Below, in pieces: positions 6,620 through 34,151 of a DNA stretch of 64,000 nucleotides. The notes below the pieces were generated by a model, which did no database searches, was not told the DNA's origin, and saw nothing but the letters and a program-made list of their open reading frames with translations. The DNA lies in the NCBI RefSeq assembly GCF_001187555.1, contig NZ_LFIJ01000001.1, forward strand, positions 1,266,169-1,330,168, read 5' to 3'. Made by a program: the position numbers and the translations under genes. Each line of letters starts with the position of its first letter. The stretch's first letter is position 1. Origin of the DNA: Gilvimarinus polysaccharolyticus (GTDB lineage Bacteria > Pseudomonadota > Gammaproteobacteria > Pseudomonadales > Cellvibrionaceae).

Positions 6620-8491
6620 TTACAGCAAAAGACGACGTACGTCGGCAATTACAGCCGTTAGGTAAGTAAAGAAGCGTCCGGCATCGGCACCATTGATGGC
6701 GCGATGATCGTAAGATAACGCCAGCGGCAACATGTTGCGCGGGATAAACTCACTACCGTTCCAAACAGGTTTCATTTGTGCGCGTGAAACCCCCAAGATA
6801 GCCACTTCTGGCGCATTAACAATGGGCGTAAAGCCATTGCCACCCATAGCACCCAAGCTTGAGATAGTAAAACAACCACCTTGCATATCCGCAGCGGTTA
6901 GTTTGCCATCACGCGCTTTTTTAACCAAAGCGGTAAAGTCGTCGGCTAATTCCCACAAGCCTTTTTTATCGACATCGCGAATCACTGGCACCATCAAACC
7001 GTTAGGGGTATCTACAGCAACCCCAATGTGCACATATTTTTTCTGCACAATGTGCTCGCCATCGTGATGCATCGAGACGTTAAAGCTCGGCTCGGCGACC
7101 AATGCGGCGGCACAAGCTTTTAGCAAAAATGGCAGGGGCGATAACTTGCTACCACGCTTTTCGGCTTCGGCTTTAAGGCCTTTACGGAAGGCTTCCAGCT
7201 CGGTGATATCAGCATCATCCCACTGCGTAACGTGCGGAATGTTAAGCCAGTTACGCACCATGTTGTTAGCGGTGAGCTTTTTAACTTTGCTCATTTTTAC
7301 GGTTTCGATCTCGCCAAACTTGGCAAAATCGACCGCTGGAATTGCAGGAATTCCACTACCAGCTGCAGTCGCACCATTACCTGATTGGCTAACGGCTACG
7401 ATGTTTTTGACGTAGCTGCGAACATCGTCTTTGTTAATACGGCTGCGCGGACCACTGCCTTTCACTTGCTTAAGATCAACGCCTAACTGACGCGCCAATT
7501 TGCGCACAGAAGGACCGGCGTAAACCTCGGACGAGTTAACCACTGCGACGTTGTCGGCTGTTACCGGTGATCCGGCTGAAGTGGTCGGAGTGTTCACCGG
7601 GGCGCTTGGTGCTTGAGGCGCGGCCTCAATTTTAGCTGCAACCGATTCAACTTCCATTTCACAAATGGCGTCACCCTGAGAAAGCTTGTCACCCTCTTTG
7701 GCGATAACCTTAAGCACTTTACCGGCACTAGGTGCTGGAATTTCCATCGAGGCCTTATCAGTCTCCAGCACGATCATGGTGTCACCTTCACCAATTTCAT
7801 CGCCAGCACTGATGGATATTTCAATAACTGCAGCGCCTTCAGAGCCGCCAATATCTGGCACAGCAACAGTCTCAACCGAACTGCCAGCAACCGCTGGAGC
7901 TGCAGCACTGGATTGCTCAGGAGCGGCCTCAGCCACCTCTGACGCAGCACCAGTCATTACACCCAACTTATCGCCTTGCGACACTTTGTCGCCTTCTTTT
8001 AAGTCGATGCTAATAATTTTACCGCTAGCCGGCGCTGGAATTTCCAGTGAAGCTTTATCGGTTTCTAACACGACAAGCGAATCGCCTTCATTAACTTCAT
8101 CGCCAACAGCGACACAAACCTCAATCACATCAACGTTATCTGAACCGCCAATATCAGGGATAGTAATCGTTTGTTCGGCCGATGCGGCAGCAGGTGCAGC
8201 TTTAGGGGCCGGCTCACTTTTAGCCGGTGCCGCTTGCTCAGCACTTGCACTCGCTTCTGTTTCGATTTCAAAAATCACATCGCCTTCAGAAACTTTATCG
8301 CCGTCTTTAACTTTAATAGCCGTGATTTTTCCGGCAACAGTACTCGGTATTTCCATCGAAGCCTTATCGGTCTCTAATACCAACAGCGAGTCATCGACTG
8401 CAACGGTATCGCCAACGGCGACCGATATTTCAATGACATCTACATTTTCCGAGCCGCCAATATCAGGGACTTTAATCGATTCAATTGCCAC
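6620..8491 (-). CDS. aceF: Pyruvate dehydrogenase E2, dihydrolipoamide acetyltransferase
   Basis: The 623-residue E2 subunit transfers acetyl groups from E1 to CoA via lipoyl-lysine. Three lipoyl domains are visible, each with a DKAS motif (near residues 43, 159 and 253), joined by Ala/Pro-rich linkers; a peripheral-subunit-binding domain follows (PSVRKLARQLGVDL, ~328-341), then the catalytic domain ending with LSYDHRAINGADAGRF (~593-608). The HRxIN-G variant of the active-site motif is also found in Azotobacter/Pseudomonas E2. It follows aceE by 110 bp and a small hairpin, with a strong terminator after it. No lpd gene is adjacent. Confidence 0.96.
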   Translation of the reverse strand: MAIESIKVPDIGGSENVDVIEISVAVGDTVAVDDSLLVLETDKASMEIPSTVAGKITAIKVKDGDKVSEGDVIFEIETEASASAEQAAPAKSEPAPKAAPAAASAEQTITIPDIGGSDNVDVIEVCVAVGDEVNEGDSLVVLETDKASLEIPAPASGKIISIDLKEGDKVSQGDKLGVMTGAASEVAEAAPEQSSAAAPAVAGSSVETVAVPDIGGSEGAAVIEISISAGDEIGEGDTMIVLETDKASMEIPAPSAGKVLKVIAKEGDKLSQGDAICEMEVESVAAKIEAAPQAPSAPVNTPTTSAGSPVTADNVAVVNSSEVYAGPSVRKLARQLGVDLKQVKGSGPRSRINKDDVRSYVKNIVAVSQSGNGATAAGSGIPAIPAVDFAKFGEIETVKMSKVKKLTANNMVRNWLNIPHVTQWDDADITELEAFRKGLKAEAEKRGSKLSPLPFLLKACAAALVAEPSFNVSMHHDGEHIVQKKYVHIGVAVDTPNGLMVPVIRDVDKKGLWELADDFTALVKKARDGKLTAADMQGGCFTISSLGAMGGNGFTPIVNAPEVAILGVSRAQMKPVWNGSEFIPRNMLPLALSYDHRAINGADAGRFFTYLTAVIADVRRLLL

Positions 8492-26483: not shown

Positions 26484-26549
26484 TATGGCCGCTGCAGCAT
26501 TAAACGATAGACCATCACGTGAGCAGGCAATAACAGCAAAAGGTAAAGC

Positions 26550-26987
26550 ATGAAAGTTACCCGTTATACCGATTACGCCCTGCGGGTTTTAATGTGCCTT
26601 GCCGTGTGTGAAAAGCGCGTCACCATCGCCGAGATCGCCACGAGCTATGGCATATCCAAAAACCACCTAATGAAAGTCGTGCAGCAACTCAACCATTTGG
26701 GCTACATCGACGCGGCGCGCGGCAAAAATGGCGGCTTACAACTGGGCCGCCCGCCCAACCAAATAAACCTAGGCGCACTGATCCGCGATACAGAGCAAGA
26801 CCTAGCGCTAGTAGAATGCTTTAACAGCGACACAGATACCTGTACTCTTACCCCCGCATGCCAGCTAAAAGGTATCTTTGCCGAAGCGTTGGCTGCATTT
26901 ATTGCGGTGTTCGATAACTACACTCTGGCAGATTTAACACCCAAAACAAAACATCAATCCCAACTACTTAGGTTGTTAAACTTATGA
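26550..26987 (+). CDS. nsrR: Rrf2-family nitric-oxide-sensing repressor NsrR
   Basis: A 145-residue Rrf2 protein with an N-terminal winged helix (TRYTDYALRVLMCLA; ITLAEIA-like helix-turn-helix at ~25-45). Three cysteines at residues 90, 98 and 104 match the Fe-S cluster ligands of NsrR, and the context (nnrS, NsrR-like sites) agrees. The cluster reacts with NO, releasing the repressor from DNA. Its stop codon overlaps the start of the SirB2 gene (ATGA), so these are co-transcribed. Autoregulation via the upstream sites is possible through nnrS read-through. Confidence 0.94.
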   Translation: MKVTRYTDYALRVLMCLAVCEKRVTIAEIATSYGISKNHLMKVVQQLNHLGYIDAARGKNGGLQLGRPPNQINLGALIRDTEQDLALVECFNSDTDTCTLTPACQLKGIFAEALAAFIAVFDNYTLADLTPKTKHQSQLLRLLNL

Positions 26988-27349
26988 GCTACATGGCCCT
27001 TAAACACTCTCACCTGATGCTCGTCGCACTCTCCATCGGCTTATTTGCCCTGCGTTTTATTGCGCGCGAAGCCGGCGCCCGCTTTGTGCAGGCTAAGTTT
27101 TTTAAAATAGCCCCCCACATTATCGACACCTGCCTGCTAATCAGCGGCTTCGCCTTAATGTTTACCGTCGGCTACTCACTCTGGCCCATCAACTGGCTCA
27201 GCGTTAAATTGCTACTGGTTATCGCCTACATCGTCACCGGCGTTATCGCCATGAAAGCCACCAGCAAATGCAAACGCTGGGCAGCCGGCGCATTAGCGTT
27301 TGTGTGGATTATGGGCATTTTGCATTTGGCGATGAGTAAAGGGTTTTAA
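26984..27349 (+). CDS. SirB2 family membrane protein
   Basis: A 121-residue protein with four hydrophobic segments and the family pattern: HSHLMLVALSIGLFALRF at the start, APHIIDTCLLISGFALM in the middle, and WIMGILHLAMSKGF at the end. SirB2 proteins are small inner-membrane proteins of unknown function. It overlaps nsrR by 4 bp (ATGA), which suggests translational coupling and a role in the same NO or haem context, though this is inference. It marks the left edge of the accessory island. Confidence 0.9.
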   Translation: MSYMALKHSHLMLVALSIGLFALRFIAREAGARFVQAKFFKIAPHIIDTCLLISGFALMFTVGYSLWPINWLSVKLLLVIAYIVTGVIAMKATSKCKRWAAGALAFVWIMGILHLAMSKGF

Positions 27350-27365
27350 GGTAGTAGTGGTTTAA

Positions 27366-27560
27366 ATAGCCTGCCGGAGGTGGAAGCTGGGGTTAAGCCA
27401 AGAGGCGTTGGCAGAAGCCACCGGCGTAACCGTGGAGACGATCAGCCATATCCAGCGTGGGATACATGGGCCTAGGTTTGGGTTGATTGAGAAGCTTGAG
27501 ATGGTACTGGATGTTAATACGGAAAGTTTTTTTAAAAATAATTTGCTATCGCCGTGCTAA
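27366..27560 (+). pseudogene. XRE helix-turn-helix gene remnant without a start
   Basis: A 64-codon open frame reads as an XRE regulator: KLGLSQEALAEATGVTVETI, then SHIQRG and FGLIEKLEMVLDVN. It has no ATG/GTG/TTG at a suitable place: an in-frame TAA sits at 27363, just before the expected first helix. Its stop overlaps the degenerate attC-like site that starts at 27555. It is probably an N-terminally truncated regulator, although use of a rare start cannot be excluded. Confidence 0.65.
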
Positions 27561-27627
27561 GGGGCGGCGCGTTTTATTGCCGTCCCGCTGAGCCGAAGGT
27601 GAAGCAAACTTTGGCGCCTTGTTATGC
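27555..27627 (-). other. Degenerate integron attC-like site (attC2)
   Basis: On the minus strand a 73-nt site starts GCATAAC (R''-like) directly after the TAG of the secreted-protein gene and ends CTTAGCA (R'-like, with C where the conserved G of GTTRRRY should be). Inside, GGCGCCAAAGTTTGC pairs imperfectly with GCAATAAAACGCGCC. Immediate adjacency of gene stop and attC is typical of gene cassettes. The mutated R' may make it inactive. Confidence 0.55.
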
Positions 27628-28185
27628 CTATTCAAAACGCTTCATATCTATGAGTTCAAAACCCTGCATTGAATTAAATATTTCTTTATTTTCAGGCCAA
27701 AGTTCCTCTAATGTACCGGCGATCATGACAACCGCAAGGTCTATACCATTACCCCAAAAAAGGGAATATTGTATTCGGAATTTCTTACCTTCTCCGTGCT
27801 GAGCTGCGGGTTCGATTGTTTCTAAACATATTCGAGTAAATATACCCTGATCTTGGGCTTTACACTGGCTTATAACTTGAACTTCTTCTTTTTTACTTTC
27901 GACGAATTCTCGAAGAAAAGTTTCCGGGGTTTTTCCAGTCTTTTCTTCAACCCCCATTATTGATTGGACTCTCACTCCAGTTATATATGGCCCTTTTTCA
28001 AGGTCTTCTTTTGAGAGTATCCAAGTATACGATTGGCTACTATGGCGTTCATTGTAATGCCATTCTTTTGGTACCTCTATTTTTCCGCCAGTAGGTTCGA
28101 GTATTTGAGTTCGAAAGCCTTCGGATTCAATACCAAAACATGTAAAAGATAGCGCGCATAATAAAGAAGTAATAATTAATTTCAT
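27628..28185 (-). CDS. Secreted hypothetical protein, cassette-type gene
   Basis: A 185-residue protein from the ATG at 28185, beginning with a signal peptide (MKLIITSLLCALSFTCFG). The mature part has one Cys pair (CKAQ and CLET), is mixed alpha/beta, and has no recognised motif. An upstream start at 28329 would run through an attC-like site and is rejected. The gene lies between two attC-like sites in the orientation expected for an integron gene cassette. No strong ribosome-binding site is visible, which is common in cassettes. Function unknown. Confidence 0.7.
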   Translation of the reverse strand: MKLIITSLLCALSFTCFGIESEGFRTQILEPTGGKIEVPKEWHYNERHSSQSYTWILSKEDLEKGPYITGVRVQSIMGVEEKTGKTPETFLREFVESKKEEVQVISQCKAQDQGIFTRICLETIEPAAQHGEGKKFRIQYSLFWGNGIDLAVVMIAGTLEELWPENKEIFNSMQGFELIDMKRFE

Positions 28186-28198
28186 TGTGGGCCAAAAG

Positions 28199-28312
28199 GC
28201 ATAACGCCCATGTCTGTTGCATTTTGGTTGTAGTGGAGCTTTGGGGTAAAGTGGCGAAACCACCCCAAAACGGAACGAAAGCCAAAGCGCCGACAGGACA
28301 TGCTTGTTAAGT
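28199..28312 (-). other. Integron attC-like recombination site (attC1)
   Basis: A 114-nt imperfect palindrome. On the minus strand it opens with ACTTAAC (R'') and GCATGTCCTGT (L'') and closes with ACAGACATG (L') and GTTATGC (R'). L'' has one extra C relative to L', the extrahelical base that defines attC polarity. The centre holds further inverted repeats (TTTGGGGT/ACCCCAAA). Orientation agrees with all neighbouring minus-strand genes. Confidence 0.75.
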
Positions 28313-28358
28313 TTTTGTTTACTGTTCAATTATTTTCTCTCTGTACGACTCAACTGGG

Positions 28359-28426
28359 CAATCGATAGGGTCAGAGTCGTTGATTCTGAGTTACATCATC
28401 TATTTCAGCGACTCTGACCCCATTGA
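28359..28426. repeat. 68-bp palindromic repeat, copy 1
   Basis: Starts CAATCGATAGGGTCAGAGTCG and ends CGACTCTGACCCCATTGA; the two ends are inverted repeats around a conserved core (TTCTGAGTTACATCATCTAT). It is nearly identical to copy 2 and lies between the HEPN gene stop (28460) and attC1. The GGGTCAGAGT/ACTCTGACCC ends resemble REP-like elements mobilised by Y1 (RAYT) transposases. Confidence 0.85.
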
Positions 28427-28459
28427 TTTTGAAATTTGTCCGATGCAGCCGTTTTTTAG

Positions 28460-28966
28460 CTATGGGTTGATCGCCCTTTCGATACATTCTAGGACAGCCA
28501 CACAGTCTTCAAAGTAGTTCTCTACGTTAGAAAAAGTTATTGAAGGTGCCCCCCCATGTGCAAATGCATTTCTTGCTTGATTTAGTGAATCAAGGGAATC
28601 CTTTATTCTACTTTTATGCTCTTTACCAGCCATTTCACTTTTAAAATTATTAGACCAAGAGTCATCGAAGCTGGCTAAACTGCTGCAGATATTTGAGTAA
28701 CTTGGATTCAAAGAGCTATTTCGAAATTTTTTATCTATAAAACTTTTAACCTGATTTGATTGACCCTCTGAATTCGCATCAGAAATAATAGTTTTAAAGC
28801 CAAATTCAATAGCGCCGCATGCCCTAACGATTGAGTATCTAGTCAAATACGGTACCGGGTGGCTCATTGCACCCATACCCTCAATAATACTTTTGATCTT
28901 AAAGAATTCATCTAAGCAGGACTCAATCCTTTCAGATACTGAGCCGTTACTTATATTGAATTCCAT
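28460..28966 (-). CDS. HEPN-domain protein, partner of DUF262
   Basis: A 168-residue all-helical protein resembling the MAE_28990/MAE_18760-like HEPN family. It contains the HEPN RNase motif R-X4-H as RNAFAH at residues 132-137, within QARNAFAHGGAPS. HEPN proteins of this kind are toxins or RNA-cleaving effectors in defence systems. Its ATG lies inside the end of the DUF262 gene (20-bp overlap) with GAGGTGAT as ribosome-binding site, so the two are translationally coupled. The region is more AT-rich than the flanking core genome, suggesting transfer. Family assignment is by motif and context. Confidence 0.78.
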   Translation of the reverse strand: MEFNISNGSVSERIESCLDEFFKIKSIIEGMGAMSHPVPYLTRYSIVRACGAIEFGFKTIISDANSEGQSNQVKSFIDKKFRNSSLNPSYSNICSSLASFDDSWSNNFKSEMAGKEHKSRIKDSLDSLNQARNAFAHGGAPSITFSNVENYFEDCVAVLECIERAINP

Positions 28967-30071
28967 ACATCACCTCAAGAACATGTGAAATTCTACCGTG
29001 GATGCTATCTGCTTGCATTGTACCTTCACTTGTAAATTTTCTATACTCTTCTATTTGCAAAAGGTCCAATCTCTTTTCTTCAAGATTAGCTATGGGGATA
29101 TCATCACCTAAATGCTCTAGCGCAATAGTAGTGCCTACCATTATTGAATCAAAAATAGTAGGATAGAAACGCTTCCTAATCTTACTTCGGTCACCTGAAA
29201 CAATATTGTGAAACGCATCATCACCAATATTATTTCGAACAAATGAAATAGTCCGAGCAAAGGTTTCCTTCAGACTTCTCACCTTTTCATCTGTATTGTT
29301 CTGTTCATCTCCCATGTATTCATTCAGCAATTTTTTCAGAGAAATATTTCCTTTTTGGGCATTCTTTACCTTATCGGTGTTTAATGCTAAATATCTTAAG
29401 ATAAATTCCATATCTTTCATGCGAGAGTCAACATCCCCCCCCATGAAGTATCTCCAATCTTCATTTCTATTTGCATCTATCAGCATTGAGTTTAGATTTC
29501 CTTGGTAGACACAATTTCTAATTTCTTGCGCCGCTAGAGCACGGCCACCAGTATTAATTCTTTCAAATATTTGATAAAGGCTAGTATCATTCTCTTTTGG
29601 TTTTGTTTGCTCGAATACAATAGCGTGAATTGTAGTGCTTCTTATTTTTCTTTGTTCTGCTGAAGAAAGTTCGCCGAATGATTTCCCTTTCCATCTCTCA
29701 TTTATTTTGTCACTATTTGATAATCGAAAGACACGGCCATCTTTTGTCCAGATACCCTTAACAAAATCATAAACAGTCATGATTCTCTGATATCCATCCA
29801 CAATTAACTTATAATCATCTGAGGTATTCGCTAGAAATATACTTGGCACAGGAAGGCCAAGAAGCAACGATTCTATAAATCGACTGGCCTCAACCTTATC
29901 CCACACATAGTGCCTTTGAAGTTCCGGCTTGATCAGCTCATCCTCTTCATACATTGTGATTAATTCACGAAATGACAGGTCAGCACCCCAAGACGTAATA
30001 TTGTAAATATCATCATTGGAATAAGAGTCTTCATTCTCTTCTGGTAAATTTTCAATTTCCTGGTCTGTCAT
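28947..30071 (-). CDS. DUF262 (ParB/Srx-like NTPase-type) protein
   Basis: A 374-residue DUF262 protein. Visible motifs: LQRHYVWDKVEASRFIESLLLGLPVP (residues ~51-76), the DGxQR motif as DGYQR at 92-96, and FERINTGG followed by QEIRNC near 168-182. DUF262 is the N-terminal module of GmrSD-type restriction enzymes, where it binds and hydrolyses nucleotides to control a DUF1524 nuclease. Here DUF1524 is absent and a separate HEPN protein is encoded instead. Ribosome-binding site GGAG precedes the ATG at 30071. The first gene of a likely two-gene defence module. Confidence 0.9.
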   Translation of the reverse strand: MTDQEIENLPEENEDSYSNDDIYNITSWGADLSFRELITMYEEDELIKPELQRHYVWDKVEASRFIESLLLGLPVPSIFLANTSDDYKLIVDGYQRIMTVYDFVKGIWTKDGRVFRLSNSDKINERWKGKSFGELSSAEQRKIRSTTIHAIVFEQTKPKENDTSLYQIFERINTGGRALAAQEIRNCVYQGNLNSMLIDANRNEDWRYFMGGDVDSRMKDMEFILRYLALNTDKVKNAQKGNISLKKLLNEYMGDEQNNTDEKVRSLKETFARTISFVRNNIGDDAFHNIVSGDRSKIRKRFYPTIFDSIMVGTTIALEHLGDDIPIANLEEKRLDLLQIEEYRKFTSEGTMQADSIHGRISHVLEVMYGIQYK

Positions 30072-30111
30072 GATTACTCCATCAATGATAAAAAGTATTA
30101 ATAATCAATAG

Positions 30112-30180
30112 CAATCGATAGGGTCAGAGTCGTTGATTCTGAGTTACATCATCTATATCAGCGACTCTGACCCTATTGAC
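30112..30180. repeat. 68-bp palindromic repeat, copy 2
   Basis: CAATCGATAGGGTCAGAGTCG ... CGACTCTGACCCTATTGAC, almost identical over its length to copy 1 (two or three substitutions) and in the same orientation. It lies between the start of the DUF262 gene (30071) and the stop of the next gene (30208), so copies 1 and 2 flank the DUF262-HEPN pair as direct repeats. Confidence 0.85.
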
Positions 30181-30207
30181 CTCTTGATTGCTTATTAAGC
30201 CTGCTTT

Positions 30208-30645
30208 CTAATCCAACATATTCCAGACTTCAGGTAGCCTGAAGCAAGTATAGCTTTGAATTGAATTCTTAAAGCGTTCCATTTCGTTAACAAGTATATT
30301 TATTTCTGCAGATGATATTTCTCTTTCTTCAACTTTTGGCCTGCTAGATTTTAATATATCCAGACAGCCCGACTTTGCATATACCCTACCGTGAACAATA
30401 ACGTTTCTATCTTCGAATATTTCTTTACAAAGCTTTAAATCAGAAATGATAGACCTGAAATCATTTTTAGTTTGTCGCTCAAAAAACTTTCGTGCGTGAT
30501 CTATTTTGGAACTTATTTGAAAGCCGCCTTTATATGGAGATAATGATTCAATAGAATAAAGTAGTAGTTCTATTTGTTCTTCCAGATAAGCTCCATATAA
30601 CGTTAAATAGCCAACAGATTTTACAACATCATCACCATCTCTCAT
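30208..30645 (-). CDS. Second HEPN-like small protein
   Basis: A 145-residue, mostly helical protein of no named family that I recognise. It contains FEDRNVIVHGRVY, giving R-X4-H at residues 80-85 (RNVIVH), the same type of motif as the neighbouring HEPN protein. This suggests a HEPN fold, possibly catalytic. It is a single gene between repeat copies 2 and 3, and an attC half-site lies just before its start. AT-rich. Alternative: a non-catalytic HEPN-like helical bundle as often found in integron cassettes. Confidence 0.65.
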   Translation of the reverse strand: MRDGDDVVKSVGYLTLYGAYLEEQIELLLYSIESLSPYKGGFQISSKIDHARKFFERQTKNDFRSIISDLKLCKEIFEDRNVIVHGRVYAKSGCLDILKSSRPKVEEREISSAEINILVNEMERFKNSIQSYTCFRLPEVWNMLD

Positions 30646-30662
30646 TTTTTATTTTACTCTTT

Positions 30663-30706
30663 ACTTAACGCCTACCAGCATGTGCGGCTACGGAATGAGG
30701 GCGAAG
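30663..30706 (-). other. attC-like half-site (3' half only)
   Basis: On the minus strand, GCACATGCTGGTAGGC is followed by GTTAAGT (overlapping R' consensus GTTRRRY), 18 bp before the start of the 145-residue gene. The matching R''-L'' half is not present; the sequence instead runs into repeat copy 3. This could be an attC truncated by that repeat. Confidence 0.4.
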
Positions 30707-30710
30707 CCGA

Positions 30711-30776
30711 ATCAATAGGGTCAGAGTCGTTGTTTCTGAGTTACACCATCGATCTCAGCGAATCAGCCCCACTGAT
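30711..30776. repeat. 68-bp palindromic repeat, copy 3 (diverged)
   Basis: ATCAATAGGGTCAGAGTCGTTG ... TCAGCGAATCAGCCCCACTGATT. The left arm and core match copies 1 and 2, but the right arm has several changes, so the hairpin is weaker. Same orientation as the others. It separates the Mrr-like gene from the second HEPN-like gene. Confidence 0.75.
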
Positions 30777-30801
30777 TACAAATTTTTGCACTCGAACCCA
30801 C

Positions 30802-31728
30802 TTAACCATCATCACTAAAAAAGTCAGAATCTATCGTTTTGATTTGGTAGGTCTCTTTTACCGTAACACCCAGGTTATGCTTAATCATTAACTCGGCCAG
30901 TTGTTGGCCATCTATTAAAACTATCTTTTTTTCGATGAGCTTAACGTATTCCAATGCGTCACGACTGAAGGCCGATGTGGTTATAAAAACACCTTTCTTG
31001 GCGCGCTTCATTTCTAGTGCGCCAACAAAACCTTGTATATCTGGCCTACCAATAGAGCCACTGGTATACCTTTTAGCTTGTAGATAGATGGTATCTAGCC
31101 CTAACGGATCTTCGTTAATTATGCCGTCAATGCCACCGTCTGCCGTATATTGGGTCGCCTGACCGGAGTCTTTACTCCAACCGCCGTAGCCCATGGCTTG
31201 CATCAGCTCCACGACTAAGGTTTCCAAAAACTGGGGAGACTGCTCCTTAACGGTAGCAAGCACCTCTTCTATAAGCTCTTGCTGAATTTCGCTATGGGCT
31301 TGCTCTAGACGCTCCGTAGGGTCTGTTTCGCTTTCGACATCGGCTTTAGCCACTACGGAGTGATCTGCCGTGGATTCACTTTTGGGTTTAGCCGTATAAA
31401 ACTCAACGAATTCTGGAAACTGCTTGAGGAATTTTACATTGATACGCTCTGGCTCTTGCTTTAACGCAGCCAAACCACGTTGAGTGATTTGCAGTTGACT
31501 CCGCCCAGGAGCCATCATCAACCCGGCCTTATTCATATAGGTGCGAGCCCAAGCGGTGCGATTGCGAATAACGGTTTGCTTACCAGACGGGAGTTTTTCG
31601 GCTCGCTCTTCACAGGTCAGTTTGAAATGTAAGCAGACCTGCTCAAATGCTTCATTGAATTTATGTATTTGGCCATCTTCAATGGCCGCCAAAAGCGGCC
31701 TCATACAGCGTTGAAAATCTGGAATCAT
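30802..31728 (-). CDS. mrr: Mrr-type restriction endonuclease
   Basis: A 308-residue protein with the Mrr layout: an N-terminal winged-helix (Mrr_N) region (~1-110), a polar linker (~115-165), and a C-terminal PD-(D/E)xK-type nuclease domain. The catalytic stretch is GGIDGIINEDPLG then IYLQAKRY (D and QxK, ~193-218), and GFVGALEMKRAKKGVFITTS follows. Mrr cuts DNA carrying foreign methylation. ATG at 31728 with AAGGA upstream. It stands alone, without a modification enzyme nearby, as expected for a type IV system. Confidence 0.92.
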   Translation of the reverse strand: MIPDFQRCMRPLLAAIEDGQIHKFNEAFEQVCLHFKLTCEERAEKLPSGKQTVIRNRTAWARTYMNKAGLMMAPGRSQLQITQRGLAALKQEPERINVKFLKQFPEFVEFYTAKPKSESTADHSVVAKADVESETDPTERLEQAHSEIQQELIEEVLATVKEQSPQFLETLVVELMQAMGYGGWSKDSGQATQYTADGGIDGIINEDPLGLDTIYLQAKRYTSGSIGRPDIQGFVGALEMKRAKKGVFITTSAFSRDALEYVKLIEKKIVLIDGQQLAELMIKHNLGVTVKETYQIKTIDSDFFSDDG

Positions 31729-31969
31729 GATGTTCCTTATCGACTATTAACTTTCCTACTTAACTTTGACGACCTCAAAACTAAGGTACACACAGACCTA
31801 ACGACGAGCTATAGCGTTAACCACACCAAAAGCAACAAAGTATTAATAAGCGACAATAAGCCAATATGCCCCAAGGCTCAAGAGCTTACAGGTAACTTTA
31901 AAACACGACCTAGACGGGGCAAACTTGCTAAAAGTTAAGCGAGGCCACCTCACTGAAGACTAAGCCATG
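31729..31969. other. Intergenic region upstream of the Mrr-like gene
   Basis: About 240 bp without a recognisable gene. TTAACTTT and AAAGTTAA motifs near its ends form a long-range inverted repeat of ~10 bp that weakly recalls attC ends but are too far apart (~190 bp) to call. It should hold the mrr promoter. Confidence 0.3.
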
Positions 31970-32203
31970 TTAATTCGTCAATTGCGCCACCTGGACACCC
32001 AGCACTTTGGCGGCTTTTACTAGGGTGCGCTTTTGTGGCTTGGCACCGGCTTTTTCTAGCTACGCTACGGCGGGCTGGGTTACGCCCATAAGGTTAGCCA
32101 GCTCAGTCTGGCTTAAGCCTTGAAGGGTACGCCACACGGCGATAAGGTTTAAGCCTTTTTCAATGCACAGGCCTACTACCTCATTGGATAAATAAACGGC
32201 CAC
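31970..32203 (-). pseudogene. XRE-type antitoxin/regulator with an in-frame stop
   Basis: From a GTG at 32203 the frame reads a complete small XRE protein of ~77 residues: WRTLQGLSQTELANLMGVTQPAVA, then a TAG at 32062-32060, then LEKAGAKPQKRTLVKAAKVLGV to a TAA at 31970. The stop falls in the recognition helix where relatives have a residue such as Lys or Ser (AVxKLEKA), so one base change (AAG to TAG) explains it. It starts 3 bp after brnA, suggesting it was a third gene of that operon. Confidence 0.75.
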
Positions 32204-32205
32204 AA

Positions 32206-32490
32206 CTACAGGTGGTGCAGTTTTTTAAGGTCGTTATCCAGTCGCGTTTGCCAGCCTTTACCGCTATCGCGGTAATGGGCCAATACCACCTCAGATAAAC
32301 GCAGGCTTACCGGGGCTTTGGTGGGCGCTTTTTGTGGGCCGCGGGTTTTAGGCTTTAGCATTTGCGCGGCCAGTTTTTTGGGGAATATTTCTGGCAGCAC
32401 GTCGCGGGCTGGACGGGCACGAGCAAAATCGGCATCGGTCCATTCGGGGTTGTCGTGGTCTGTCATTTCAGGGTTGGGTTGCTTGCTCAT
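32206..32490 (-). CDS. brnA: BrnA family antitoxin
   Basis: A 94-residue protein matching BrnA: the acidic N-terminal ENPEWTD-like segment (DNPEWTDADFARARPARDVLPEI) and the C-terminal ribbon-helix-helix region (KAPVSLRLSEVVLAHYRDSGKGWQTRLDNDL). BrnA neutralises the BrnT ribonuclease toxin and represses the operon. It overlaps brnT by 23 bp, so synthesis is coupled. A palindromic operator lies upstream of brnT. Confidence 0.93.
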   Translation of the reverse strand: MSKQPNPEMTDHDNPEWTDADFARARPARDVLPEIFPKKLAAQMLKPKTRGPQKAPTKAPVSLRLSEVVLAHYRDSGKGWQTRLDNDLKKLHHL

Positions 32491-32743
32491 AGCGTGTTAT
32501 CTCCCGCTGATTGGCTTTGCGAAAACTGATGACCCGAATACCACCCGGCACGGGCGAAAATACGAGCATGTGAACACGACCGGCCACTAGACCTAACGCC
32601 TGAAAACGCCGCTCTGTGTAGGTGTGGCGGGTGTCTTCTACGATGCTGGCACCGCTAAAATCAAACTCGGCCACGCGGTCAAAGGCTAAGCCGCGCTGGC
32701 GTATGTTGTGGTCGTTTTTGGCGGTATCGTATTTTATGATCAC
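32468..32743 (-). CDS. brnT: BrnT family ribonuclease toxin
   Basis: A 91-residue BrnT toxin with a RelE-like fold; features include RQRGLAFDRVAEFDF, the charged ERRFQALGLVAGRVHMLVFSP and a C-terminal RVISFRKANQREITRYE that carries the conserved basic residues. BrnT cleaves mRNA. The GTG start at 32743 abuts the palindromic operator, leaving no room for a ribosome-binding site, so the mRNA may be leaderless. Being on the minus strand ahead of brnA, it is the first gene of the operon, as in other brnTA pairs. Confidence 0.92.
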   Translation of the reverse strand: MIIKYDTAKNDHNIRQRGLAFDRVAEFDFSGASIVEDTRHTYTERRFQALGLVAGRVHMLVFSPVPGGIRVISFRKANQREITRYEQATQP

Positions 32744-32770
32744 AACTATATTGTAATGACAATATAGTTG
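32743..32770. promoter_or_regulatory. brnTA operator palindrome
   Basis: CAACTATATTGT-AATG-ACAATATAGTTG, a perfect 12-bp inverted repeat whose end touches the brnT start codon. A TATAAT-like -10 (TACAAT/TATATT) lies inside it, so binding by BrnA would block transcription. Confidence 0.8.
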
Positions 32771-32928
32771 ACTAGCAAGGTAATAAACGGGGCGGCGGTG
32801 AATGAGCCGATAAAGTTGCCGTCTTGATCTTGCAGGGTTAGGCCGGCGCTGTGGTAGGCGGCTAGCTGCTGGGGGGTTAGTACGACTTCATCGTTGGTGT
32901 GTTGGGTGGTTGCTGATTTGACCATCAT
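32746..32928 (-). pseudogene. Possible truncated antitoxin-like ORF upstream of brnT
   Basis: A 60-codon frame whose first ~42 residues (QHTNDEVVLTPQQLAAYHSAGLTLQDQDGNFIG) look like an ordinary soluble small protein, while the end (PFITLLVNYIVITI) is read from the brnT operator region. This suggests that the 3' part of an older gene was replaced when the brnTA unit arrived. No family recognised; it may also be a genuine small gene. Confidence 0.35.
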
Positions 32929-33201
32929 CGCACCTCTTTTTACACACGAAGAATGGCCGAAACCGCAGTGTTCCGATATCGCCGGCGCTTGAGCATAATA
33001 TTGTTAGAGGTATGCGCATTTAGCGCCCGAACATCTTACCGAGGCTCGATACTAAATCGCTGAACCCGCTGGTGGTAGGAATAAAACAAATTGCAGCACG
33101 AGCGTAGACAGTTTGTGGAGACTTTCGGGGATGAAGCAAAAATACGGCCGTTTAAAAAATAGCGATGGCACGCTAAGCCGTTGAAATATATAGATAAAAA
33201 A
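32929..33201. other. Gap between the island and tRNA-Leu
   Basis: About 270 bp with no recognisable gene, promoter or repeat. It adjoins the 3' end of tRNA-Leu, a common junction for islands, but I find no second copy of the tRNA 3' end near the other side of the island. Confidence 0.3.
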
Positions 33202-33288
33202 TGGTGCCCGGGACCGGAATTGAACCGGTACGACCGTTAAGTCGGCAGATTTTAAGTCTGCTGTGTCTACCAATTCCACCACCCGGGC
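33202..33288 (-). tRNA. tRNA-Leu (anticodon TAA)
   Basis: On the minus strand the 87-nt sequence begins GCCCGGGTGGTGGAATTGGT and ends GGTTCAATTCCGGT...CCCGGGCACCA, folds into a standard class II tRNA with a variable arm, and has TAA in the anticodon loop (ACTTAAAAT). CCA is encoded. Its 3' end faces the accessory island. Confidence 0.97.
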
Positions 33289-33408
33289 ATTTAGGGGGGC
33301 ATTTTTTATAGTAGAGATTGGCTCCCTACTTGTAGCTTTTGCCAGCCAAACACTGTGGCCTTACTGGCGCTTTATTTTTACTTTACCCTAAGGCTTAGTA
33401 AAAATAAA

Positions 33409-33482
33409 TGGAGGCGCGACCCGGAGTCGAACCGGGCTAGCTGGATTTGCAATCCAGAGCATAACCGCTTTGCTATCGCGCC
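33409..33482 (-). tRNA. tRNA-Cys (anticodon GCA)
   Basis: On the minus strand: GGCGCGATAGCAAAGCGGTT at the 5' end, anticodon loop TTGCAAA (GCA), T arm GGTTCGACTCC, and acceptor pairing with ...CGCGCC-TCCA. 74 nt with encoded CCA. It lies between pgsA and tRNA-Leu; the tRNA-Gly often found here is absent. Confidence 0.97.
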
Positions 33483-33593
33483 GTTTTGAGGCCGGCATTC
33501 TAGCGTAAAAAACCAAAAAAACCTACTCTATTTCACCCTTTTAGGATGTTTTTATTTTGTAAATGATTGATCTATAAACAGTTAGTGCGGTTT

Positions 33594-34151
33594 TTACTCG
33601 TCGTGGGTGCTGGTGCCGGCCATTAAGAAGGGCCAAGCCGCCTTAAGGTACAGTATCATCGACCACAAGGTTAGCGCCGCTGCAGCCACCATGGCGATGT
33701 AACCCAGCCACAGTAGCACTGGAATATTTGCGAGTAAAACAATGATTGCCACCATTTGCAGCGTGGTTTTAATTTTGCCGATATAAGATACCGCGACGCT
33801 GGCGCGCTGGCCCAGCTCGGCCATCCATTCGCGCAAGGCCGATATAACGATCTCGCGACCAACAATTACGCAGGCACACACGGCAAACCAGGGTGCAGAG
33901 TGCAAGGTAACCAGTAAGACTAGCGCGATAACCACCATCAGTTTATCGGCTACTGGGTCTAAAAATGCCCCTAGCTTGGTGCTTTGATTGTACTTACGCG
34001 CCACATAGCCATCGGCCCAGTCGGTAATGGCGGCGATACTAAAAATAATAGCGGCGGTAATATGGGCCCCTTTAAAAGGCAGAAAAAACACTAGAACAAA
34101 TAAGGGAATAAGCCCAATACGAATAAGGGTGAGCTGATTGGCTAATGTCAT
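33594..34151 (-). CDS. pgsA: CDP-diacylglycerol-glycerol-3-phosphate phosphatidyltransferase
   Basis: A 185-residue inner-membrane enzyme that makes phosphatidylglycerophosphate. The CDP-alcohol phosphatidyltransferase motif is visible as DWADGYVARKYNQSTKLGAF then LDPVADK (residues ~43-68), with four or more membrane helices. It sits after uvrC and before the tRNA pair, the classical gacA-uvrC-pgsA-tRNA order. Confidence 0.96.
   Translation of the reverse strand: MTLANQLTLIRIGLIPLFVLVFFLPFKGAHITAAIIFSIAAITDWADGYVARKYNQSTKLGAFLDPVADKLMVVIALVLLVTLHSAPWFAVCACVIVGREIVISALREWMAELGQRASVAVSYIGKIKTTLQMVAIIVLLANIPVLLWLGYIAMVAAAALTLWSMILYLKAAWPFLMAGTSTHDE

Follow-up and report, generated by a model that had tools for sequence, protein, structure and literature searches.

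The island between sirB and a tRNA-Leu in the 64,000-nucleotide stretch of Gilvimarinus polysaccharolyticus DNA analysed here (the window) raises the question of whether the attC-like site that it contains is a genuine integron site and, if so, how gene cassettes came to be placed where no integrase gene is found. The site at 28199-28312 (attC1) is a genuine integron recombination site (attC). Such sites are delimited by boxes of the consensus R''/R' = RYYYAAC...GTTRRRY, which is fitted by ACTTAAC and GTTATGC of attC1, the latter deviating from the strict GTTRRRY at one base like many sites of this genome. Reading of the minus strand from 28312 to 28199 gives ACTTAAC AA G CATGTC C TGT ... ACA GACATG GGC GTTATGC, confirming the R''/L''/L'/R' boxes assigned in an earlier note made from the sequence alone, together with the extra base in L'', which interrupts the 6+3 bp of pairing between the L arms. 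When the bottom strand (the window plus strand) is folded, this extra C of L'' appears as a bulged G in the L stem, hence the extrahelical base that the note had expected of an authentic site is present, and the R boxes form five pairs, one of which is G-T. Orientation of attC1 agrees with that of the genes, as had been stated, and the downstream gene indeed begins 14 bp past the site, with its ATG at 28185. The further statement that all genes share one direction holds for the named genes in 27628-32743, all of which are on the minus strand, but not for the remnant of an HTH gene at the island edge (27350-27560, plus strand). This remnant is of the XRE type, faces the array and overlaps with its end the degenerate site attC2 (Table 1).

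Recognition of attC1 by computation is based on a covariance model (R1), used instead of a loose R/L-box script that returned mostly chance matches. R1 was built from ten attC sites of the array at C2:1586640-1592628, hand-picked with a pattern written from the attC consensus rather than by a published tool, and attC1 was left out of the training. A covariance model had been proposed in the earlier note as a check, and R1 matches attC1 with 73.8 bits and a genome-wide E of 7.5e-14, making it the top match outside the training set and the fourth in rank of at least 37 matches at E<=1, obtained by scoring 150 of the 836 first-look candidates. As a control, up to 95 candidates per genome were scored in 39 other genomes of the phylum. 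Of these genomes 29 gave no match at E<=1, and the best foreign score, 54.6 bits, came from one with 95 matches, most of which form long runs on one strand, the pattern of a large integron. The whole hairpin of attC1 does not exceed its shuffles in stability (z -1.2 and -1.0), in contrast to that of a sibling attC from the same genome (z -6.8). This unexceptional stem stability would suit an ordinary terminator or a repeat that happens to resemble attC, but such an origin is in effect excluded by the score of a model not trained on attC1, by the 39-genome control, by the chaining of boxes described below and by 85% identity, over positions 34-111, with a member of a ten-attC array, and we regard it as barely conceivable. 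Searches of the window against Rfam at gathering thresholds matched two tRNAs only, and blastn of attC1 against plasmids gave only short matches (E>=2).

As stated in the earlier note, no intI gene lies near attC1, and the genome search for intI that it suggested, carried out with TIGR02249, identified two genes above the cut-off, both on contig C2 (C2:308090 and C2:499138), the remaining matches on C1 and C2 being below it. The description of an array without integrase is hence valid for the neighbourhood, but not for the genome. Both IntI are full-length ORFs of 326 and 341 aa, of which the one from C2:499138 matches the solved structure of an integron integrase (2A3V, 6e-86). An apparent TGA within one intI is actually the stop codon of the 326-aa ORF. 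The array could be served in trans by these two integrases. It is also not the only one of its kind, as 49 of the 57 attC hits at E<=0.5 are distributed over 11 loci without intI; this number is a minimum (at least 11), counted in 13 own-genome stretches chosen for earlier R1 matches, with ten training sites among the 49 hits and nine of the 57 scoring below 23 bits. Each of seven congeners has 8 to 26 attC hits, and an intI is present in five of them.

Integron integrases cut R' between G and TT, and the closing R' of one attC therefore belongs to the next cassette, so that R' should mirror R'' of the next attC. This chaining was examined in the 48 of 57 own-genome attC hits that score at least 23 bits, leaving out the nine weaker ones and taking as neighbours sites on the same strand with a gap of less than 3 kb. 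Chaining was perfect at all four variable positions in 21 of 29 neighbouring pairs, as compared to 98 of 2227 non-neighbouring ones, and none of 5000 shuffles reached 21 pairs. Nine of the ten pairs within the training array and 12 of 19 elsewhere are perfect. Of the eight pairs that fail, that in locus L011, at least, resembles a one-base shift of the model end. Two such links were found in the window: the R' box GTTAAGT of a half attC (30669) mirrors R'' ACTTAAC of attC1, and R' GTTATGC of attC1 mirrors GCATAAC at 27627, 1 nt past the stop codon of the 185-aa gene. Computed in this manner, the cassette-like part of the island covers about 3.1 kb (27.55-30.69 kb) and is divided into cassettes A and B. 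The half-site link is not unique, as a second GTTAAGT occurs within 3 kb, at 30806, over the Mrr stop codon and with no GGC before it.

Table 1. Features of the array and its island, and the dispersed attI copies (window positions unless a locus or contig is named).
Feature	Position	Strand	Remarks
SirB-family gene	26984..27349	+	Other island flank
attC2, degenerate attC	27545..27627	-	Clear R'' GCATAACAA 1 nt past 185-aa stop; right end ambiguous; R1 10.5 bits
Cassette B, ~0.65 kb	27551..28204	-	185-aa protein and attC2; right end approximate
185-aa protein	27628..28185	-	Signal-peptide-like start by eye
attC1, complete attC	28199..28312	-	R'' ACTTAAC 28312-28306; R' GTTATGC 28205-28199; extra C in L''
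Cassette A, ~2.46 kb	28205..30668	-	145-aa gene, DUF262+HEPN pair, attC1; ends inferred from R-box chaining
69-bp palindromic repeat, copy B	28358..28426		Fold z -5.5
HEPN protein, 168 aa	28460..28966	-	PF18735 E 1.7e-20; PD-T4-2_B E 1.9e-4
DUF262/GmrSD_N protein, 374 aa	28947..30071	-	NsnA E 3.6e-66; PD-T4-2_A E 1.2e-56
69-bp palindromic repeat, copy A	30111..30179		97% identical to copy B, direct orientation
145-aa protein	30208..30645	-	RxxxxH as in HEPN proteins by eye; without family match
Half attC (L'/R', ...GGCGTTAAGT), truncated	30663..30690	-	By eye and R' box; start of cassette A
69-bp palindromic repeat, copy C	30708..30776		78%; adjoins truncated attC
Mrr-type type IV restriction enzyme	30802..31728	-	Island neighbour; R1 finds no attC
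BrnT/BrnA toxin-antitoxin pair	32206..32743	-	Island neighbour
tRNA-Leu and tRNA-Cys	33202..33482	-	Island flank
Orphan attI copies (of C2:499138 attI)	L022 5338, L081 4827, L082 5129, L086 7893, L088 7514, L089 8012, C1:669965-670242		No intI

Only one attC is significant under R1 in 26500-34000, attC2 reaching 10.5 bits (E 0.28 in 7.5 kb), slightly below a chance-like site at 26932-26981 (11.9 bits). This fact, the adjacency of the island to tRNA-Leu and the occurrence of R''- and R'-like boxes seven and six times in the window, on both strands, are consistent with a lone attC that arrived together with a single gene on an ordinary island next to a tRNA, in which case the half and degenerate sites would be due to chance and no array would have existed. 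Such an account is nevertheless quite improbable, given that both adjacent boxes obey the chaining rule against a background of 4.4% each, that GCATAACAA begins 1 nt past a gene stop codon, that the 185-aa gene has in genome G075 a relative which shares its start box and is part of an attC array, and that the low-GC segment coincides with the inferred cassette boundaries (GC in 1-kb windows of 36-41% over the cassettes and of 47-58% before 27.5 kb and after 31.0 kb). The site attC1 very probably is an authentic attC closing the first cassette of a short, part-decayed and integrase-less array, situated in the island between sirB and tRNA-Leu.

This array does not account for the island as a whole. 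The interpretation in the earlier note of the island as a cassette array is correct for the ~3.1 kb at 27.55-30.69, but not for the Mrr and BrnTA genes upstream, between the array and the tRNAs, at which R1 finds no attC. From sirB to tRNA-Leu the distance is 5.85 kb here, as compared to ~0.2-0.5 kb in the syntenic congeners G001, G004 and G006, in which sirB and tRNA-Leu are neighbours and the island is absent as computed; the comparison is confined to these three, no tRNA being present in the 16 kb beside sirB of four other congeners. R1 found no attC in the stretches taken from seven congeners. An alternative to the relic of a longer array is the insertion of cassettes by an in-trans integrase straight into the chromosome at a non-classical attG, whose consensus is G|WT; attG is the topic of Loot et al. 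2024, cited in PMC12444791. The right end of attC2 may read GGCG|AT (27545-27553), the form expected of such a junction, the array is without an attI copy, and attC clusters are scattered over the genome, all of which such an insertion would accommodate. At the same time, the upstream end resembles an attC half site and not plain chromosome, and no empty site could be aligned, as the spacers of the relatives do not align and the junction is not readable at base level. Direct insertion is possible, if on the unlikely side.

Under the preferred reading of a part-decayed array, an integrase encoded elsewhere (the two IntI on C2), or since lost, would have recombined cassettes between G and TT of R', and the start of each cassette would thus mirror the R'' box of that cassette. 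The 145-aa gene was probably the original content of cassette A, then a small cassette, and the DUF262+HEPN pair would have entered it between two direct copies of the 69-bp palindrome. The repeat copies A and B indeed flank the pair, and the exact 12-mer GGGTCAGAGTCG was found on either strand only in the island, with no occurrence in the rest of the window or in another 328 kb of own-genome sequence. By eye the 69-bp palindromic repeats are REPIN-like. Behind the gene of a relative of the 145-aa protein in G158 (37% identity) there is likewise an attC, in the same orientation as the gene, so that entry of the pair into a small 145-aa cassette is the simplest reading; the start box of this relative, GTTAGGC, agrees by eye with R'' of its attC at three of the four variable positions. 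With the upstream attC truncated and the last one degenerate, attC1 would be the one site here that seems to have remained usable, in trans.

The cargo of cassette A consists, besides the 145-aa gene, of the adjacent and overlapping DUF262 and HEPN genes, which are probable anti-phage defence genes, a function suggested by similarity to known systems. PD-T4-2 is listed with both DUF262 and HEPN PF18735 (PMC10952713), and a DUF262 protein adjacent to a PF18735 HEPN protein, in overlapping genes, is what cassette A contains, with the difference that the putative homologue here is carried by an integron cassette. The DUF262 protein has its closest relatives at L076 (Shewanella surugensis, 76%), L077 (73%), L117 (73%) and L118 (55%), and no significant attC was found near any of these four. 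Among remoter relatives, an attC match at E<=1.1e-4 on the strand of the gene was observed in five (L120, L122, L129, L130 and L131) of the 19 foreign loci scanned, out of 25 listed. Within the own genome a relative with 27% identity lies directly after an attC, at C2:929908; this gene (C2:928774-930807, L089) belongs to an attI-headed, intI-less array.

The 185-aa protein of cassette B is probably exported, judging from its N-terminal sequence. It has no match in Pfam, PADLOC or NCBIfam and none among plasmids, and NCBIfam returned nothing for five island proteins. Among the 293 genomes of the order, the own genome included, one strong relative of its gene was found, in G075 (66% identical), and a weaker further match (E 1.7e-4) has three stops. 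The G075 gene (L079, ~1501-2055) is part of an attC array and is preceded by the same box GTTATGC; R1 calls no attC immediately beside it, the nearest called sites being 865-942 and 2613-2713.

For every array, the mirror of the R'' box of the first attC was sought in the sequence upstream of that attC. In five intI-less arrays (L022, L081, L082, L088 and L089) the mirror box is preceded by the attI sequence of the C2:499138 integrase, with a second, unrelated occurrence of the box in L081 and L088. A sixth attI copy, in L086, fits as array head on inspection. The seventh, at C1:669965 (L083), is separated by 2.9 kb from the attC downstream of it, a search for the matching box was negative, and the link to an array is absent. 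These seven orphan attI copies have ~275 bp in common with the intI locus and six of them fit exactly as array heads. The common block begins near -273 (-237 in L089) and ends at the G|TT point, that intI starting at -344, and some orphan copies are alike further upstream, to about -355 and in one pair to -424. Using this block in a genus search, eight strong copies (one beside intI and seven orphan) and two weak ones were obtained in this genome, and copies also occur in five of seven congeners (G001, G003, G005, G006 and G007). An attC follows within 3 kb, in the same orientation, in 17 of all 24 hits, as judged from 48 given attC positions, and three of the 17 are near an intI. Of the two attI hits of G005 one is followed by two attC, and no intI was found in G005 at E<=1e-60.

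Other array heads differ. L085 carries at 7271 an orphan copy of the attI end of the other integrase (GGAAGGAGCCTATTAAAAT|GTT), heading an intI-less array, while L084, L087 and the window array are without a recognisable attI head, and the best match to the attI copy in the window has an E of 0.18. A supposed third attI type (ACGTTTTTCTACAGYCTC|GTT) was rejected, as its upstream sequence is common to several places and resembles an insertion-sequence end. The ACGTTTTTCTACAGYCTC-ending sequence stands directly before GTT in L011 (15096), L013 (15989), L022 (9261), L081 (11959) and L082 (9554). It may be the end of an insertion sequence with attC as its target, presumably in keeping with the habit of IS1111/IS110 elements.

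It is an evenly balanced proposition that the array is an outpost of a distributed integron, in which two integrases would act in trans on at least 11 intI-less attC loci and the capture site would have been multiplied around the chromosome. If the dispersed attI copies are functional, many chromosomal platforms could be filled by a single integrase, and some of the arrays without integrase that are reported from bacteria would not be decayed integrons. Detection of attI by IntegronFinder 2.0 is restricted to class 1 (PMC9024848), so that dispersed attI copies would be overlooked. In the excerpts of the open-access literature compared, which included the integron paper PMC9668308, no genome with several orphan attI was found to be described; attI-derived sites in cassettes of mobile integrons are the subject of PMC12901181.

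Cassette blocks without intI are already known, and in this genome they are scattered over many places. A cluster of attC sites lacking an integron-integrase is termed CALIN, with a default of at least two attC (IntegronFinder 2.0, PMC9024848), and about half of Xanthomonas genomes are reported to have such clusters at loci away from intI (PMC12444791). The window array shares with CALIN its same-orientation cassettes with attC and no intI nearby, but has one clear attC along with a degenerate and a half site where the tool default is two or more. The designation as a CALIN-type array in the earlier note is accordingly apt with respect to the attC and the lack of a nearby integrase, but borderline in number, as one clear attC stands beside a half site and a 10.5-bit site. 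A solitary attC without integrase is termed SALIN in a Shewanella survey, which also reports cassettes with two or three ORFs per attC (PMC9229058), and the one clear attC found here away from intI corresponds to it; in contrast to a SALIN, chaining here points to at least two former cassettes. Shewanella prophage M16-3 carries one intI-less array starting with the attI of the resident integron (PMC9892861), resembling the other attI-headed, intI-less arrays of this genome, which however has seven orphan attI copies as compared to one array there, and none of them in the window array. What the window array offers is an instance of integron cassettes that carry probable anti-phage genes at a distance from any integrase, and the R-box chain serves as a simple sequence test for intI-less gene clusters built by an integron integrase and for the starts of their cassettes, even where an attC is half lost.

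Among the attI-headed arrays, the same first-cassette start follows the attI copy in L022 (5338), L082 (5129) and L088 (7514), with the same attC boxes at the end of the cassette, and the attC of this common first cassette is also present in L081, at 6906-6989. The cassette start common to three arrays suggests copying of cassettes within the genome.
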